A DNA stretch of 64,000 nt from a virus, in the IMG/VR virus record IMGVR_UViG_3300025141_000072, positions 1-64,000 of that record. The stretch is one strand, 5' to 3'. Below the pieces are notes generated by a model that saw nothing but the letters and a program-made list of their open reading frames with translations, did no database searches and was not told the DNA's origin. The stretch's first letter is position 1; each line of letters starts with the position of its first letter. Position numbers and translations under genes: made by a program. Shown here piece after piece: positions 4,435 to 16,193 of the stretch.

Positions 4435-4797
4435 CTACAGCAGCTCGGCTGCTGACGGTGCGGGTTCTGCGTCCGGCACGGACGCGGGTTCGGGCGTGGC
4501 CGATAGCGCCGGCTCGGGCGCGACGGTCGGTCCAAGAGGCCCCTCGGCCCCGGGGAGCGACGCCCCCGGCGAGGCGCTCGTGTGAGCGCCGAAGTACAAG
4601 GGCACCTGGCGGCCGCTCTCGGGCCACCAGCCGGGCGGGGGCGTCCACCCGCACTTGAGGGCCATGTGCCCGATCTCCATGAGCTGGGACGCCGTACGGC
4701 TGAAGACACCGTTCGACGCTTGGTCGGCCAGACTCTCCACCGCGTCGAAGACGCTCCGTGGAATCGAGATGCTGGCGTTCATTGTCCGTTTTGCCAT
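4435..4797 (-). CDS. Ribbon-helix-helix-like DNA-binding protein
   Basis: 120 residues. Residues 6-50 read as a beta strand (NASISIP) followed by two helices, the pattern of RHH/CopG-type proteins that dimerise and insert a beta ribbon in the major groove. The C-terminal 60 residues are Pro/Ala-rich and probably disordered. It is followed by the RecD2-like gene and preceded by a 550-bp iteron-rich region whose repeats resemble targets of RHH proteins, so it probably binds there. The start lies inside AGAATGG, right after a short stem holding GAGGA in its loop. Confidence 0.7.
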   Translation of the reverse strand: MAKRTMNASISIPRSVFDAVESLADQASNGVFSRTASQLMEIGHMALKCGWTPPPGWWPESGRQVPLYFGAHTSASPGASLPGAEGPLGPTVAPEPALSATPEPASVPDAEPAPSAAELL

Positions 4798-4813
4798 TCT
4801 GCAGTCCTCCTGC
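4798..4813 (-). promoter_or_regulatory. Stem-loop leader with Shine-Dalgarno in the loop
   Basis: On the minus strand GCAG-GAGGA-CTGC is followed by AGAATGG, which contains the start codon of the 4797 gene. The Shine-Dalgarno GAGGA sits in the loop. It is a variant of the leader family seen elsewhere in this arm, with only 3 nt between stem and start. Confidence 0.5.
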
Positions 4814-4816
4814 GAA

Positions 4817-4884
4817 GCTCAGTAGTGGCTACTGAGCCGCTTGTCAATAGTCGACACTCAGCACTCACGGCGTGAGTACTGAGT
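4817..4884. promoter_or_regulatory. Two operator-like inverted repeats
   Basis: Positions 4817-4825 and 4829-4837 form a perfect 9-bp inverted repeat (GCTCAGTAG, 3-nt spacer). Positions 4856-4869 and 4871-4884 form a 14-bp inverted repeat with one mismatch. Both share a CTCAGTA/TACTGAG core and lie just upstream of the RHH gene, so autoregulation is plausible. No promoter hexamers were identified. Confidence 0.55.
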
Positions 4885-4913
4885 ACCAACGGGGTCACCG
4901 GTTGAGTCGAATC

Positions 4914-5237
4914 GATCACCACTTTTGTGTGGCAGTAGTGGTGCCAATAATAATGTGAACAACATCGCTAAGTGTCTCTACTAAGTAGTAGTAGTAGTAG
5001 TAGTAGTTTTTAGATCACCACAATCACCACAATCACCACTGTATATGCCTCGCCAGGAAAATCGGCGAATGCCTCCTGAAAGTACTATAGTAGTTAAGTG
5101 GTGGTGATCGTGGTGATCGCGGTGATCCTAAAATTACTAGAAACGAAAAGGCGGGTGACTCTGCGCACTTGCCGATATTATTCGCAGTAATAGGATCACC
5201 AAAACAGTACTGAACTAAGTGGTGATCGGTGGTGATC
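4914..5237. repeat. 9-bp iteron cluster (GTGGTGATC / GATCACCAC)
   Basis: Tandem triplets occur in opposite orientation at 5013-5039 (GATCACCAC, then AATCACCAC twice) and 5101-5127 (GTGGTGATC twice, then GCGGTGATC). Single or double copies lie at 4914-4922, 5194-5200 (GATCACC), 5219-5227 and 5229-5237. An AGT trinucleotide run lies near 4983-5007. The stretch is AT-rich for this genome and has no gene. Such arrays occur at replication origins and at centromere-like sites bound by RHH proteins; which applies here is not shown. Confidence 0.75.
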
Positions 5238-5257
5238 GGCGTTTATAGCATCGCCAA

Positions 5258-5330
5258 GGGCCCGGAATCCTTCGATAAGTCCCACCGGTCAGAATTCCGG
5301 GCCCCGGGTCAGTCTAGTTCAGTACTGAAC
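5258..5330. other. Hairpin plus 14-bp palindrome at the end of the upstream operon
   Basis: GGGCCCGGAAT at 5258-5268 pairs with ATTCCGGGCCC at 5294-5304 across a 25-nt loop. GTTCAGTACTGAAC at 5317-5330 is a perfect palindrome, and its core CAGTACTGAAC recurs at 5205-5215. They lie just beyond the stop of the 5351 gene, so the hairpin may end or trim transcripts of the long minus-strand operon; there is no clear U-tract. Confidence 0.5.
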
Positions 5331-5350
5331 GCCCTGCAGCGCGCCCTCCG

Positions 5351-5641
5351 CTACCTGAACGATAGCGCGTTGATTGCCTGATCGTAGGCCACGACAGCCT
5401 GTCCACGCTCCCGCAGGTACGTGATGACGTCGAGGAACTCCCCTGCCCGCATCTTGGGCGGCAACTCGTGCCATTCGATCTCGCGGCCTACCTTGCCACC
5501 TGCAGACTGCGCGGGGCTGCTGGTGATGAACACGCAGAACTCGACGGCGTCCGTCGACCCGAAGCCCGTTGCCCCCGTCGCGATCGTGGCGGGGCCGACG
5601 ACCTGCGTCGCCGGGATGGGGGGAGGCGGCATGTCGATCAT
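5351..5641 (-). CDS. Hypothetical protein
   Basis: 96 residues with a Pro-rich N-terminus, a central hydrophobic AVEFCVFITSS strand and a C-terminal helical region. Start ATG 5641 overlaps the stop of the methyltransferase remnant (ATGA). It is the last gene before the iteron region. No family recognised. Confidence 0.65.
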   Translation of the reverse strand: MIDMPPPPIPATQVVGPATIATGATGFGSTDAVEFCVFITSSPAQSAGGKVGREIEWHELPPKMRAGEFLDVITYLRERGQAVVAYDQAINALSFR

Positions 5642-6128
5642 CAGCCGTCACCGCCCACCAGCGACTCGAGGATGCACCGCCCGAACCACTCGGCGACCAC
5701 CGGACACACCGCGTCGCCTATCGCTGCGATTCGTTCCGCACGGATGCGATCCAGCTCGCGAGGTGAGCAGCCGTGGGCAGCGACCAGTTCGGCCGAAAGC
5801 CCATCGTCCACTCGGTGAAGCGCGGGACGAGCTCGCCACCCCAGGACGTCGCCTTGCTCCAGAGGCTCGGCGTGTTCCCCGACGGCCTCTCGAACTTGCC
5901 ACCCTTGCCATGCGACCCGTTCTGCCCCGAGCCGTACGGGACGGCAGTTGGGGTCGGGTGCATCCCACGCGACCAGGAAGAACCGGTCTCTTTCGTGGTG
6001 GGCGCCGAAGGCGCGCGCAGGGATGCAGTCCCAGAGTCCCACGTACCCGAGCGCGGCCAGGTCCGAGGTAATGGTAGCGAGTCCCCTCGACAACGGCCGA
6101 GGTTCGCGCGTTCTTGCGTCGAGCTCAT
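5641..6128 (-). pseudogene. Remnant of a cytosine-5 DNA methyltransferase
   Basis: One frame from about 6093 to 5641 encodes the C-terminal half of a Dcm-type enzyme: a DLAALGYVGLWDC segment, a motif VIII-like GAHHERDRFFLVAW, and a motif X-like IGDAVCPVVAEWFGR. Directly upstream, another frame encodes NARTSAVVEG, which normally precedes it; removing one base from the C4 run at 6083-6086 joins the two. The N-terminal half with the SAM site and catalytic PCQ is absent. The coupled ATG at 6128-6126 opens a third frame. A decayed or truncated gene, or a sequencing error at the homopolymer, are the options. Confidence 0.65.
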
Positions 6129-6727
6129 GCCTGCACCTGGAACACGCGCCCGGCGCCGAGGCACGCAGGGCACGTGGGGTCGTGCACGTGGCGTCCCCAG
6201 CCGCGGCCGGAGCCCTCGCACGCAGGACAGTTACACAACCCGCCCGCGTGCTCGATGCGATCGACTAGTTGGTGCGCTCGCATGCTACGAAGCGTCGGCG
6301 TCACGATGCGCCCGATCGGACGCAGGCCGTTGCCGGCGCCGAGGAGCCGACCGCCGCGCTCGACGTGCCACGCCTTGCGCACCGGGTTCGGTCCGAACTG
6401 CGGCCACGGTACCGGGTGCGACGTCCATGAGGAGCGGTACACCATACCGTTGACGCACTCGTCGCAGTACTTCACGTCGTCGATGCGCGTCGTGCCGAGG
6501 CAGAACGGACAGCGCGCTTGGCCGAGCAGGCCGGGCCACGGCTCGCCTCGTCCCGCCTTGTCGAGCAGCGGCGAGTTGATGTCCACGCCGGCGACGAGCA
6601 CGATGCCGGGCGTCCGGGTCGCGACACCCGACCAGGCCGAGCGTGCGGCAAGCAGCCCCCAACCCCGGTCGACCAGTGCGTGCGACAGCGCGAGTCGCGC
6701 TTCGATGTCGACTGCGTCGTCCGTCAT
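6125..6727 (-). CDS. Zinc-binding protein with DnaJ-type CxxCxGxG motifs
   Basis: 200 residues. The N-terminal half has no recognised fold. The C-terminal half has CPFC...CDEC, CPACEGSGRG and CPACLGAGRV, a DnaJ-like zinc-finger set. ATG 6727 overlaps the upstream TGA (ATGA). Immediately after its stop the same frame continues into a methyltransferase fragment, suggesting an old deletion junction. Function unknown. Confidence 0.7.
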   Translation of the reverse strand: MTDDAVDIEARLALSHALVDRGWGLLAARSAWSGVATRTPGIVLVAGVDINSPLLDKAGRGEPWPGLLGQARCPFCLGTTRIDDVKYCDECVNGMVYRSSWTSHPVPWPQFGPNPVRKAWHVERGGRLLGAGNGLRPIGRIVTPTLRSMRAHQLVDRIEHAGGLCNCPACEGSGRGWGRHVHDPTCPACLGAGRVFQVQA

Positions 6728-6999
6728 GATGCCGGCTCCTCCTCGTGTGCGGCACGCGCTTCGTCGAGCGGCAGCGTCACCAAGGCGTCGACTGGCACGA
6801 GGACCGCGCTGGTGTATCCGTGACTCCACCGAACCCCACACACGATACGCGGCCCAATCTCCCCAAGCTCCTCGTCGATGTACTCAAGCGCCGACTCCAC
6901 GACCGGCTCCTCCAGCTCCAGCGGCTCGACCAGGTCTTCGGTCCCACGCTGCCCCTCCATGATGAGCAGGTGCGTGTGCTCCTTCTTCATGTGTTTCAT
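6724..6999 (-). CDS. Hypothetical acidic protein
   Basis: 91 residues from ATG 6999, with AAAGGGA upstream; a second ATG follows three codons later. After a Lys/His-rich N-terminus the protein is strongly acidic, then has a central segment with GPRIVCGVRWSHGY and a hydrophobic VLVPVDALVTLPL stretch. It leads a coupled group behind a strong stem-loop. No family recognised. Confidence 0.65.
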   Translation of the reverse strand: MKHMKKEHTHLLIMEGQRGTEDLVEPLELEEPVVESALEYIDEELGEIGPRIVCGVRWSHGYTSAVLVPVDALVTLPLDEARAAHEEEPAS

Positions 7000-7085: not shown

Positions 7086-8333
7086 CTATGCCAGCTGCAG
7101 CTGCACGCTGGGCGAGGGCCCGAAGGCGATGCGGATCGCCAGCTCGGGCAGTGAGGTGATGGAGCTGAGCCCGGACGAGATCAGCTCCCCAGCGACGCGA
7201 CGCGCCGCCGTCAAGACACGGGGGCCACCGCGACGCTCGCGCGGGTGGTTGGCCCTACCGTTGGTGTGCCCCACGCTCTGCGTCAGCAGGTTGCTGTCGC
7301 AGGTCACGAGACAGTCAGGACGCCCGAACGCGATCGCCCCGAGCGCCCGAGCGAACTTCTTCGACGTCGGCCCCATCCCGAGCAGGTGCATGCGCGCCGG
7401 CCGCCGCGTGTGCGCGAACAGCCGGAGCTCGTCCAGCGTGGTCGCGTTCTTCGACATCGGCATCGCCCGCACGTAGTCGAAGCCGAGAATCGCGGTGGCC
7501 GCGATGTCGAACTGCGACTGCGTCATCGAGCACTCGTCGCTCTTCTGTACGCAGACGAGCACGTTGCACCCGCAGCCGTGCCAGCCCCTCACGACGTCCC
7601 TGTAGCGCTCGAGGCGCGCTAGGGTAGTCAGGGGGCACCCGACCCGGTCGGGCGCCACCAGGTGCGCCTGGGAGCCGTACACCATGCCTACGCGAGTCAT
7701 CAGGTCGAGTCGCCGCGTCCACATGCCGTGGGAGATGGGATAGACCGCCTGGGGCCCAGCCGGGCCGAAGCGCATCTCCTTGAACGCCGACGTGTCGAAG
7801 AACAGCGGCAGGCCCAGATGCCGTATCGCGTACAGCGTGTCCTCCCCGATCGTCGACACCTCCTCGGCCGCGACGCCGATCGCTTGGCCGACGCTCGCGA
7901 AGCCACGGAGGTTCGCCGGCTGGTTCGAGCCGCTCGCGAAGTACGCCGCCGGCCGGCCCGAGGCCGCGTCCCAACCGACCAGCCCCGTTGGCAACGCAGG
8001 CGTCGCCGGAGCTGCCGGAGCCGCACCGGCGAGCGCCACGATGCCCGCGAGGCAGAGCTGGACGAGGGCCAGCCCGGCCCGCTTGAGCACACCGCCCAGC
8101 GCCGCCGGACCACCGCTGAAGCGGTCTGGCGTGAGCCCGGCCGCCGCAGCCATGATCGCCTTGGACGGGTACTTCTTGCCGCCGTGCTCGATCATGTAGC
8201 CGCCGCGACCGCCGCGCCGGGCGACCTGTGGGTTGGTGCCGTGCTTCTCGTGGAACGCGGCCGCGCCTAGCTCGTCGTACGACGCCATCGCCGCGAGTAG
8301 CCCCTCGCGGGTCACGTGCTTGAGGGAAGCCAT
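7086..8333 (-). CDS. DpdA/TGT-like protein with N-terminal ScoMcrA-like head domain
   Basis: 415 residues. Residues 1-90 match my memory of the N-terminal head of ScoMcrA-type restriction proteins (REGLLAAMASYDELG, YMIEHGGKKYPSKAI, PDRFSGG). After an Ala/Pro linker, residues ~165-360 resemble tRNA-guanine transglycosylase relatives such as DpdA: FFDTSAF near 178-184, LVAPDRVG near 225-232, VLVCVQ near 258-263, MPMSKNAT, HLLGMG near 316-321 and CDSN near 345-348. DpdA exchanges a base in DNA for a 7-deazaguanine. The assignment is by motif memory and needs a profile search; no preQ0 pathway genes are visible here. No clear Shine-Dalgarno. Confidence 0.5.
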   Translation of the reverse strand: MASLKHVTREGLLAAMASYDELGAAAFHEKHGTNPQVARRGGRGGYMIEHGGKKYPSKAIMAAAAGLTPDRFSGGPAALGGVLKRAGLALVQLCLAGIVALAGAAPAAPATPALPTGLVGWDAASGRPAAYFASGSNQPANLRGFASVGQAIGVAAEEVSTIGEDTLYAIRHLGLPLFFDTSAFKEMRFGPAGPQAVYPISHGMWTRRLDLMTRVGMVYGSQAHLVAPDRVGCPLTTLARLERYRDVVRGWHGCGCNVLVCVQKSDECSMTQSQFDIAATAILGFDYVRAMPMSKNATTLDELRLFAHTRRPARMHLLGMGPTSKKFARALGAIAFGRPDCLVTCDSNLLTQSVGHTNGRANHPRERRGGPRVLTAARRVAGELISSGLSSITSLPELAIRIAFGPSPSVQLQLA

Positions 8334-8903: not shown

Positions 8904-9249
8904 CGTCTTCTCCATTCTGCGACGCGAGGTCGCTCAACTTGTCGATGTACAGCCACCCAGGACCGTTGCCCTCGGGGTCTTGGCTGCTGTCCACGATGTA
9001 CGGGTCCACACGTCCCGCGTTGATGTCCGCGTGTGTTGAGCCGATCGGCGCGAGCACCAGCCGCTGCGTGAGCGCTTCGGCGCCGAAGCTGCCGTTGTCG
9101 TGCTCGAGCGTCATCACGTCGACGACCATGTACCCGATCAGCGGCTTGAGCCGCTCCTCGTGGAACTTGGCCCCGCGACGCAGCCGCTCGGCGTGCGACG
9201 TGCCGCGCGCGTTCACGCAGTTGCCGCCGCTGCCGCCACTGCCGCCCAT
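8896..9249 (-). CDS. Hypothetical protein
   Basis: 117 residues. A Gly/Ser-rich N-terminus precedes a domain with LKPLIGYMVVDVMTLEHDNG and QRLVLAPIGS, then an acidic tail. ATG 9249 overlaps the upstream TGA (ATGA). Function unknown. Confidence 0.65.
   Translation of the reverse strand: MGGSGGSGGNCVNARGTSHAERLRRGAKFHEERLKPLIGYMVVDVMTLEHDNGSFGAEALTQRLVLAPIGSTHADINAGRVDPYIVDSSQDPEGNGPGWLYIDKLSDLASQNGEDDE
8904..8933 (-). promoter_or_regulatory. Stem-loop/Shine-Dalgarno leader
   Basis: On the minus strand GCGAC-CTCGC-GTCGC is followed by AGAATGGAGAAG; 15 nt separate stem and ATG 8903. The stem lies inside the 3' end of the upstream coding region, so it is both coding and structured. Confidence 0.55.
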
Positions 9250-9755
9250 CAGTCGTACACCACGCGCGCGATCTTCACGGTCAGCGCGTTGCGGTCCAAG
9301 ATCAGCTTGCCGCGATCACTCGGCTCTTCGCCTTGCCACTCGATCTCACCGCTGAGGTGGTAGCCCCGCGGCGCGAGGACGTGGTGGACGATCCACTGGA
9401 GCCACTCCTCGTAGTCGTAGAACTTCTCGCCACCGTCCCAACCGATGTGCAGCCGGTCGTCCGACGGCACCCACTGGCACCACGGACCCGGTTGCCCGTG
9501 CGGTGCCGCTTCGGGCTCGAGGACCGAAGCGTCCCGCTCCTGACCGTAGACCCCGCCACCGTGGACGTAGTACGCGCCGTCTCGGCCCCAGGTCTCGAAG
9601 CCGAAGGACGAGTGGTCCGCGTCCGGCGCGGGCAGCTTCGATGTGTCGCGCGCCATGCGCCGCGTCTTCGCGAGCTTGCACAGGAACGCGTACGTCTCGT
9701 CGTCGAGCGGACGGTCCAACGTGAACTCGCCCTCGAAGTCTGTCTGGTATCCCAT
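9249..9755 (-). CDS. Conserved hypothetical protein of the GYxTxFxGxF type
   Basis: 168 residues. It begins GYQTDFEGEFTLDRPL and contains QPGPWCQWVP, WDGGEKFYDYEEWLQW and APRGYHLSGEIEWQGE. I recognise this as a widely distributed bacterial and phage family of unknown function with exactly these blocks. The start overlaps nothing; a short CTTCG-GAT-CGAAG stem precedes it but without a Shine-Dalgarno. Confidence 0.75.
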   Translation of the reverse strand: MGYQTDFEGEFTLDRPLDDETYAFLCKLAKTRRMARDTSKLPAPDADHSSFGFETWGRDGAYYVHGGGVYGQERDASVLEPEAAPHGQPGPWCQWVPSDDRLHIGWDGGEKFYDYEEWLQWIVHHVLAPRGYHLSGEIEWQGEEPSDRGKLILDRNALTVKIARVVYD

Positions 9756-10114: not shown

Positions 10115-10142
10115 CGTTGTCTCCTTCTGCGGCCTAAGCCGC
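10115..10142 (-). promoter_or_regulatory. Stem-loop/Shine-Dalgarno leader, stop codon in loop
   Basis: On the minus strand GCGGC-TTAG-GCCGC is followed by AGAAGGAG, with 14 nt between stem and ATG 10114. The TAG stop of the Mom-like gene lies in the loop, so a terminating ribosome would cover the hairpin. Confidence 0.6.
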
Positions 10143-10949
10143 GGCGCCGTACTTCGGGTACGGCTCCGAAAAGGCTGAGAGCTTCCGCGCAACTCTGCGC
10201 TTCAGCCCCCAGCAGTAAACGTGATTACCGGGGTGTCGTTGTCGTCGGACGCTGGGTGACGCGAGCACGCGCTCCACGTACGCCCGATCTCCCTCATGCG
10301 GCGCCTTCGCAGGGCAGCCTGCATCGAGCAGCTGCGCGTACGCGTAGCCAGCTCCGCGCTCGCCCAGTCGGATCTTCGACAGCGCCCGCTGCGAGATGAC
10401 GCTGCCGTCTGGCGCGAACGTCAGCGTGCGTCGAGACCCTCGACCCCGATACACGCCGTTGGTCGCCTGGTAGATGATGCCGAGGTGCCCCGGCTTGACG
10501 ATCTGCCCGTCCGAAGTGCGCCTCTCGATCGGGTCCGCGTACGAGACGACGCCGTCGATGTCCGGGCGCTCCGCACGCATACGCGCGAAGCACTGCCCGA
10601 TGAACCACGACTCACCGTTGCGGCGCACGTGATCGAGCAGCACGAAGCGGCCGAGCTCCACGCCGGCCAGCGCGTCCACGCCGAGCCAGCGCGGCACCAC
10701 CCGCTGCTGAGCTGGGACGCTGAACACGGCCACTCCGACCAAGCGCGGCACCCCAAGCCGTGGCGCCTCGAACAGCCCGTACCGCAACCGAGCAGCGGGG
10801 TACGTCCCGCTGTAGTGGTGCTGCTGCACGAATGCCTTGGCGGTCGCCTCGTCAACGGGCAGCACCTCGTGGCGACCAGGCTCGAAGCGGCAGTCCACCG
10901 CGGGCCGGAACGACTCGCGCCGGTCCCGCCAGCGCTGTGTCGCCGTCAT
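10134..10949 (-). CDS. mom: Mom-like adenine DNA modification protein
   Basis: 271 residues. The order of motifs fits the Mom family of GNAT-like enzymes that convert adenine in phage DNA to N6-carbamoylmethyl-adenine: AFVQQHHYSGTYP near 39-51, LVGVAVFSVP near 70-79, ELGRFVLLD near 98-106, a DGVVSYADP near 132-140, GHLGIIYQATNGVYRG near 154-169 and a basic C-terminal WGLKRRVARK. In Mu this modification protects DNA from restriction. ATG start immediately follows the upstream stop. No Com-type regulator was identified, though zinc-ribbon proteins are present nearby. Confidence 0.82.
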   Translation of the reverse strand: MTATQRWRDRRESFRPAVDCRFEPGRHEVLPVDEATAKAFVQQHHYSGTYPAARLRYGLFEAPRLGVPRLVGVAVFSVPAQQRVVPRWLGVDALAGVELGRFVLLDHVRRNGESWFIGQCFARMRAERPDIDGVVSYADPIERRTSDGQIVKPGHLGIIYQATNGVYRGRGSRRTLTFAPDGSVISQRALSKIRLGERGAGYAYAQLLDAGCPAKAPHEGDRAYVERVLASPSVRRQRHPGNHVYCWGLKRRVARKLSAFSEPYPKYGAAA

Positions 10950-15076: not shown

Positions 15077-15438
15077 GCCGTGTCCTCCAGCTCAGCTGAG
15101 GTCGAAGCGGCGGCCGGCCGGGACACATAGCCGCTCTCCAGCAAGTGCAGACCACAGATGGCCGAGCGCATACGCTGCCACCAGAGGTGAAACTGCGTTA
15201 CCGGTGAGGTGGAGTCGGTCCACCCGACCGGGAGCCCCTGCAAGACTTCCGTGAAGGTGGGGTTGAGCAGCGGCTGGCCATTGCGCCCAGTCGCCGACCC
15301 GTCCGGCACGGGGAGGATATAGAGCACGTCGGTCAGCGTCCAACCAGCGTGGTGCCGAGACTCCGCTCCACGGGTCCGGTTGCAAGTCGCGTTGCGTGAC
15401 GCCCGAGCGTCCAGCGCCGTCGGCGTGGGCCAGTACAA
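15073..15438 (-). CDS. Overlapping-frame protein resembling the GWT/target-recognition part of phage methylases
   Basis: This frame, +1 relative to the methyltransferase, encodes YWPTPTALDARASRN, HHAGWTLTDVLYILP and LLNPTFTEVLQGLPVGWTDS, wording I know from the target-recognition stretch of phage cytosine methylases (WPTPTA ... LNPxFVExLMGxPxGWT). It ends in an ATGA overlap with the next gene. The start is uncertain: TTG 15438 after AAGGGCGAG gives 121 residues, but entry by ribosomal frameshift from the methyltransferase frame near 15440 is equally possible. It overlaps 347 nt of the methyltransferase gene. Confidence 0.6.
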   Translation of the reverse strand: MYWPTPTALDARASRNATCNRTRGAESRHHAGWTLTDVLYILPVPDGSATGRNGQPLLNPTFTEVLQGLPVGWTDSTSPVTQFHLWWQRMRSAICGLHLLESGYVSRPAAASTSAELEDTA

Positions 15439-15973
15439 AGAGCCGCGCTCGCCCTTGAGAGGCGCCAACCGCAAATGCGTCGACGACGATCGACGCGGTC
15501 CGGTATCCGAGACGTCCGAGGTCCGAGACGATGACGCCGAACGCTTCGTTGTCTTCGAGCGCCGGGACGTTCTCGAGGAAGACCCAGCCGGGCTCACACT
15601 CTCCGATGATGCGCTTGGCGTGCGGCCACTGCCATCGGGGGTCGGCGACGCCCCGGGCAGCGGCAAGGTCACGACGGTTGCCAGCTCGGCTGAAGGGCTG
15701 GCACGGGATGCCCGCAGTGACGAGATCCACGACGCCACGCCACGGTCGGCCGTCGAAGGTGGCAAGCTCATCCCAGACAGGAGCCGGTGCCATGGCCTCG
15801 TCTTCCATCCGCGCCACGAGAGCGGCCGCGGCGCTGTCTTGCCGCTCGACAAAGCACACAGCGTGGGCTCGGGGGTCACAGAGTCGGACGCCGAGCTCGA
15901 GTCCGCCGATACCGGCACAGAGTCCGAGGACCCGTGGTCCGCTGGCACGTACAGAGCTGGCACGTACAACCAC
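15092..15973 (-). CDS. Cytosine-5 DNA methyltransferase (Dcm-type)
   Basis: 293 residues from GTG 15973, with GGGAGGA upstream; the longer frame has no further domain. Motif I LGLCAGIGGLELG is at 16-28, the catalytic GIPCQPFSRAG at 88-98 (Cys91), ENV at 134-136, motif VIII GASQGRARLFVLA at 170-182, and motif X RVDRLHLTGNAVSPLVA at 250-266. It transfers methyl from SAM to cytosine C5. The recognition region between VIII and X is short, and the same DNA encodes a target-recognition-like protein in another frame. Likely protects phage DNA from restriction. Confidence 0.88.
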   Translation of the reverse strand: MVVRASSVRASGPRVLGLCAGIGGLELGVRLCDPRAHAVCFVERQDSAAAALVARMEDEAMAPAPVWDELATFDGRPWRGVVDLVTAGIPCQPFSRAGNRRDLAAARGVADPRWQWPHAKRIIGECEPGWVFLENVPALEDNEAFGVIVSDLGRLGYRTASIVVDAFAVGASQGRARLFVLAHADGAGRSGVTQRDLQPDPWSGVSAPRWLDADRRALYPPRAGRVGDWAQWPAAAQPHLHGSLAGAPGRVDRLHLTGNAVSPLVAAYALGHLWSALAGERLCVPAGRRFDLS

Positions 15974-15977
15974 AAGG

Positions 15978-16193
15978 CTAGTCCTCCCTTCGCGCGTCGA
16001 GCTGCTCGCGGACAACGCGCACGACGCACGCGAGCCGCAAGAGCGAGCTATCGTCCGTGGAGAAGCCGTATGCGCTGAGCTGGTCGGCGAAGTCCTGCAG
16101 CAGCTGCGACGTCGCGTGGTCCATCGCACGGGCGAGCACCTTCGTGTTGAGGTCCGCCGACGCGGGGAACACCAGGTTGCGTTGGATGCTCAT
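15978..16193 (-). CDS. Hypothetical helical protein
   Basis: 71 residues, largely helical (TKVLARAMDHATSQLLQDFADQL, LLRLACVVRVVREQL). It lies directly upstream of the methyltransferase; its 3' end carries the methyltransferase Shine-Dalgarno. No family recognised. Confidence 0.62.
   Translation of the reverse strand: MSIQRNLVFPASADLNTKVLARAMDHATSQLLQDFADQLSAYGFSTDDSSLLRLACVVRVVREQLDARRED

Follow-up and report, generated by a model that had tools for sequence, protein, structure and literature searches.

Base exchange by DpdA, the DNA-guanine transglycosylase of the type found in Enterobacteria phage 9g, is already known; how enzymes of this type pick the guanines to be replaced is, to our knowledge, poorly understood. 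DpdA proteins conserve a histidine (His196 in the phage 9g enzyme) that DpdA2 lacks, and the DpdA phages that have no preQ0 genes, a large known group, may draw on the preQ0 of the host (PMC6884629). DpdC belongs to the YaaA family, and homologues of tRNA-guanine transglycosylase (TGT) associated with acetyltransferases, in the form of a GNAT and a TGT homologue, have been described in the BREX-related capture (BRC) systems (PMC12839542). The Type IV restriction endonuclease ScoMcrA (PDB 5zmm) carries a small, flexibly attached head of unknown function, its dimer contacts being made by the other three domains (PMC6224610).

The major features of the window, the stretch of 64,000 nucleotides that was analysed from a 66,039-base virus record (IMGVR_UViG_3300025141_000072), are collected in Table 1. 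The open reading frame of interest was found to be intact, running from ATG to TAG at the coordinates given by an earlier sequence-only reading. That reading had proposed a ScoMcrA-like head fused to a DpdA/TGT-like protein, and the proposal was supported for both halves by sequence profiles and predicted structure. The window protein alone gave no match in Pfam, PHROGs or NCBIfam, so the resemblance became significant only once relatives were added. No match was obtained by megablast of a 25-kb stretch of the record against 50,697 phage records, nor by tblastn against 50,697 phage records with the window protein, L037, the plasmid relative P0002 or one head, and no TGT was present among the matches of a PDB sequence search made with the first six-sequence alignment.

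Table 1. Position and basis of the features discussed (coordinates are those of the window)
Feature	Position	Strand	Basis
Whole gene: ScoMcrA-type head, linker and DpdA-like barrel	7086..8333	-	415 aa
Head domain, residues 1-91	8061..8333	-	ScoMcrA profile match; structure match; PADLOC mREase_IV in 10/10 heads
DpdA/TGT-like (beta-alpha)8 barrel, residues 127-387	7173..7955	-	AlphaFold2, Foldseek, VIA-align, hhalign
Codon D180, predicted catalytic acid/base	7794..7796	-	52/52 domains; aligned with D72 of 9g DpdA and with D89 of E. coli TGT (motif DSG)
Codon D229 in VAPD motif, predicted base-pocket residue	7647..7649	-	52/52 domains
Codon H316	7386..7388	-	52/52 domains; aligned with the DpdA-specific conserved His196 of phage 9g
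Codon D346, predicted nucleophile	7296..7298	-	52/52 domains; aligned with D215 of 9g DpdA (global alignment)
Mom-family gene, possible modification-cassette partner	10134..10949	-	Pfam Mom E 7e-25; PHROG 1384 E 4.6e-28
Partial C5 cytosine methylase-like ORF, possible partner or remnant	5641..6093	-	Matches Pfam positions 123-163 only
C5 cytosine methylase-like gene, possible partner	15092..16129	-	Pfam E 1.7e-25

Members of the barrel family were found on about 50 viral and six bacterial contigs and on several large plasmids. Head and barrel were encoded in one chain in L002, L003, L009, L035, L036, L039 (also L040 and L041) and L053, and the fusion architecture was present in at least seven phage lineages besides the window. 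Since it recurs across several metagenomes, it was deemed not to result from an assembly join. In L057 and L061 the head was a separate reading frame directly before that of the barrel. When the viral collection was searched for the head, all 10 loci retrieved carried the barrel as well, the search motif having been derived from such heads. On the barrel tree the ten members with a head required two label changes versus 9.2 in shuffles; the fusion may or may not go back to a single origin. Other contexts of the barrel were also observed. Very large phage proteins, resembling polyvalent proteins, contained a DpdA-like barrel in L015, L018, L019, L046, L054, L058 and L060, some of them together with ADP-ribosyltransferase, PAPS-reductase or DUF6884 domains. 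Unannotated relatives were located on large Alteromonas or Pseudomonas plasmids (L004:7797-9017, L005:7929-8747 and L006:5980-6777), and in L006 the following gene carries the annotation phosphoribosyltransferase.

The AlphaFold2 model of the second half contained eight strands alternating with helices (residues 130-134, 152-155, 177-180, 223-226, 257-261, 288-292, 314-318 and 342-348), and the TIM barrel expected from the sequence-only reading was thus present. The core at residues 127-348 was well modelled, with pLDDT values of 75-98 in blocks of residues 130-349, and residues 350-396 fell below a pLDDT of 50. The best PDB match by Foldseek was the tRNA-guanine transglycosylase 2nso (E 2.2e-4). 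The VIA-align list consisted almost entirely of TGT entries at a Z of about 13, but one aldolase scored 13.0 versus 13.4 for TGT, so the barrel fold alone was considered unspecific. The family profile was therefore judged on sequence, which here decides rather than fold. Aligned by hhalign to 13 phage DpdA proteins, it gave an E of 9e-9 in local and 7e-11 in global mode, while 20 column shuffles gave 0.11 or worse against the same DpdA alignment and the reversed profile gave 0.22; with only the 17 members nearest the window, the E was 1e-6. Against the single E. coli TGT sequence, coverage was limited to the DSG motif. P0002 matched PHROG 887 (queuine tRNA-ribosyltransferase) with an E of 3.5e-7. 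It was concluded from these profiles that residues ~127-387 of the window protein are a barrel homologous to phage DpdA. The likeness noted earlier for residues ~165-360 was therefore real, but its extent had been drawn too short.

For the first half, a profile was constructed from ten phage sequences aligned over window residues 1-91. This profile matched residues 5-94 of ScoMcrA in PDB 5zmm with an E of 2.6e-16, compared to 0.82 for the runner-up. The Type IV restriction profile of PADLOC was aligned at its front with window residues 6-64 (E 8e-4 for the whole protein and 4e-5 for the head alone). The AlphaFold2 model of the isolated head (mean pLDDT 78.6) aligned to 5zmm only, at Foldseek rank 1 (E 3.7e-3), and superposed on it with a VIA-align Z of 10.5 at 1.9 A over 71 residues. 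Judged by profile and model together, residues ~1-91 are homologous to the ScoMcrA head, in agreement with the resemblance first proposed for residues 1-90; profile searches have thus placed each half in the family expected for it. Calling it a restriction-type, DNA-reading head was right as to its kinship, but "DNA-reading" goes beyond the evidence, the function of the ScoMcrA head being unknown (PMC6224610). The linker between head and barrel contained a strongly hydrophobic stretch at 8019-8075 (residues 87-105), with a mean hydropathy of 2.13 over 19 residues, that resembled a membrane segment. A weaker hydrophobic stretch was found at the same place in L035 and was absent in the other members.

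On plasmids, the head formed part of HNH endonucleases, a NOV_C-domain protein (annotated DUF3883), a protein combining DUF3427 with HNH, and an McrB-like AAA ATPase; the gene next to that of the ATPase encodes an McrBC component (PF10117, E 7e-72). The occurrence of one head in ScoMcrA, in other HNH enzymes and in an McrB-like ATPase beside McrC, together with its flexible attachment in ScoMcrA, would also suit an arrangement in which the barrel modifies DNA and the head, making no DNA contact, acts as a protein-interaction module or decoy for host Type IV restriction enzymes that bear the same head. The ScoMcrA dimer, however, is held by contacts of the other three domains and not of the head, and we consider such a role unlikely.

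Conservation was scored over the 52 barrel domains of the family. Seven positions were invariant (D180, D229, P292, H316, L318, G319 and D346), and position 263 was Q in 48 domains and H in the remaining 4. The two aspartates singled out by the sequence-only reading, D180 and D346, were thus exactly placed. The zinc motif CxCxxC of tRNA TGT, present as CDCYTC at position 302 of the E. coli enzyme, was found in none of the 52 family members and in none of the 13 DpdAs. This bears on whether the protein might be a minimal TGT acting on host or phage tRNA rather than on DNA, as could be argued from the fold and motif shared with tRNA-guanine transglycosylase and from the frequent annotation of phage DpdAs as queuine tRNA-ribosyltransferases. 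The missing zinc motif, the retained DpdA histidine, the DNA-modifying enzymes encoded nearby and the derivation of the head from DNA-restricting enzymes all argue against a tRNA substrate, which we regard as very improbable.

The window protein also deviates from the family: T181-S182 stands where 51 of the 52 domains have S-G, and S265 replaces the G of nearly all other members. Together with the long terminal branch of the window on the barrel tree (1.02) and the poorly modelled residues 350-396, these substitutions could mean that this copy is inactive or repurposed, for example for binding DNA without base exchange. That interpretation has to be set against the intact reading frame, the retention of every invariant position and an identity to other head members of up to 45%, and it was deemed rather improbable.

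The base that would be inserted is suggested by the neighbours of the barrel gene in related records. In L072, whose barrel is 29% identical to that of the window (E 3e-21), the barrel gene comes after those for QueD (PTPS), QueC, FolE and a radical-SAM protein and forms a tight operon with them. The barrel gene of L011 adjoins a radical-SAM gene and QueC, and Mom lies about 3 kb further on. DUF6884 was found in the same chain as the barrel in L046, L060 and L064, and in the last of these the DUF6884 region overlaps a weak YaaA-family match. From the L072 operon and the QueC gene of L011, 7-deazaguanine chemistry was deduced to be the best reading, and the context of the relatives, including the DUF6884 chains, points to a 7-deazaguanine of the preQ0 type. 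QueC and FolE were both searched for in the 66-kb window record and neither was found, which bears out, for these two genes, the earlier remark that no preQ0 pathway genes are visible.

Mom, which has a GNAT-like fold, was encoded close to the barrel gene both in the window and in several relatives. The combined p for this proximity was 0.027 over five records, which is suggestive only. In one phage protein of 1153 aa (L071:4633-8091, plus strand), the DpdA-like barrel lies between a C5-methylase match and a match to Mom that falls slightly short of the family cut-off, so that the three appear to be combined in one chain. G047 was considered as a Mom-barrel fusion and rejected because its coordinates place Mom ~8 kb from the barrel and outside the barrel reading frame.

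C5-methylases above cut-off were present in 13 of 36 records. Such a gene is located before the head-barrel gene of L035 and after the barrel of L061; in the window, the truncated match of the shorter C5-methylase-like reading frame suggests that it may be a remnant. The L035 methylase (4685-5911, plus strand), directly before the head-barrel gene, carries a SymE-like N-terminal domain. The same gene run of the window includes a 238-aa reading frame (6125-6841, minus strand) with a match to the DnaJ-like CxxCxGxG zinc finger that is below cut-off (E 2.5e-4). Right after the head-barrel gene of L002, the product of 9161-9556 (plus strand) weakly resembles nucleoside 2-deoxyribosyltransferase (E 6e-6, below the curated cut-off). 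This enzyme was rejected as a recurrent partner, as the L002 gene was the one weak instance and none reached threshold in 25 records. PAPS reductase was likewise rejected as a general partner, being found in 6 of 21 records (one copy lies near L035) and absent from the window record.

Taken together, we consider it likely, though well short of assured, that the gene encodes a DNA-modifying base-exchange enzyme of a phage, belonging to a DpdA-like branch and extended by a ScoMcrA-type head. This assignment is supported by the DpdA profile match, the TGT-like barrel, the invariant residues, the relatives with preQ0 genes, the chains that combine the barrel with DUF6884, the C5-methylase and Mom neighbours or fusions, the absent zinc motif, the homology of the head and the existence of other DpdA phages that carry no preQ0 genes. 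Counted against it were the absence of QueC and FolE as a source of the base, the T181-S182 and S265 substitutions, the poorly modelled region, the near-tie with an aldolase and the modest p for Mom. Both the modification of DNA and the base inserted are predicted from relatives and neighbours. In the proposed mechanism, D346 would attack C1' of deoxyguanosine in phage DNA to form a covalent deoxyribose intermediate, with D180 and H316 assisting the exchange. Guanine would leave, and its place would be taken by a 7-deazaguanine, either preQ0 itself or a derivative of it, probably drawn from the host pool, and the modified phage DNA would thereby be hidden from host restriction. Less certainly, the head may serve to tether or steer the barrel, either to DNA itself or to a DNA-bound partner. 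A more specific form of this idea is put forward as an unlikely extension, in which the head recognises a DNA mark, such as a cytosine that the neighbouring C5-methylase has modified, or a DNA-bound partner, and guides base exchange to those sites: 7-deazaguanine would then be written in a targeted, mark-dependent pattern, and a restriction sensor would have been turned into the guide of a writer.

The fusion of a ScoMcrA head with a DpdA-like barrel was not encountered in literature searches of open-access papers. The recurrent pairing points to a new branch among the enzymes with which phages disguise their DNA, and the family may conceivably belong to a phage DpdA subfamily that was named later. 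The recurrent fusion with a restriction-enzyme domain makes the head a concrete candidate targeting module of DpdA-type enzymes and also offers a route to learning what the ScoMcrA head does. With about 50 phage members, the family widens the circle of phages in which modified guanine is likely to occur. Its association with Mom, with cytosine methylases and with preQ0 genes sketches a toolkit of modules for base modification.

Compared to the described systems, the window protein is closest to phage DpdA, with which it shares the homologous barrel, both acidic residues, the conserved histidine and the lack of the tRNA-TGT zinc motif. It differs from DpdA in its additional head and in the absence of QueC and FolE from its record; many DpdA phages, too, have no preQ0 genes (PMC6884629). 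Phage DpdA was not hit by tblastn with the window protein, L037 or P0002 as query. With ScoMcrA it has the head in common, but the sulfur-binding, SRA-like and HNH domains are replaced by the base-exchange barrel; no HNH nuclease domain was matched by Pfam in the window protein, residues 127-387 being the barrel. The TIM-barrel fold and, in the family, the DSG motif (D180-T181-S182 in the window protein itself) are those of bacterial tRNA-guanine transglycosylase, unlike which it has no CxCxxC motif and a much shorter C-terminal part. As in the BRC systems, a TGT homologue is accompanied by an acetyltransferase-type associate, here the neighbouring Mom, but the present locus is that of a phage and its TGT homologue bears a head domain.
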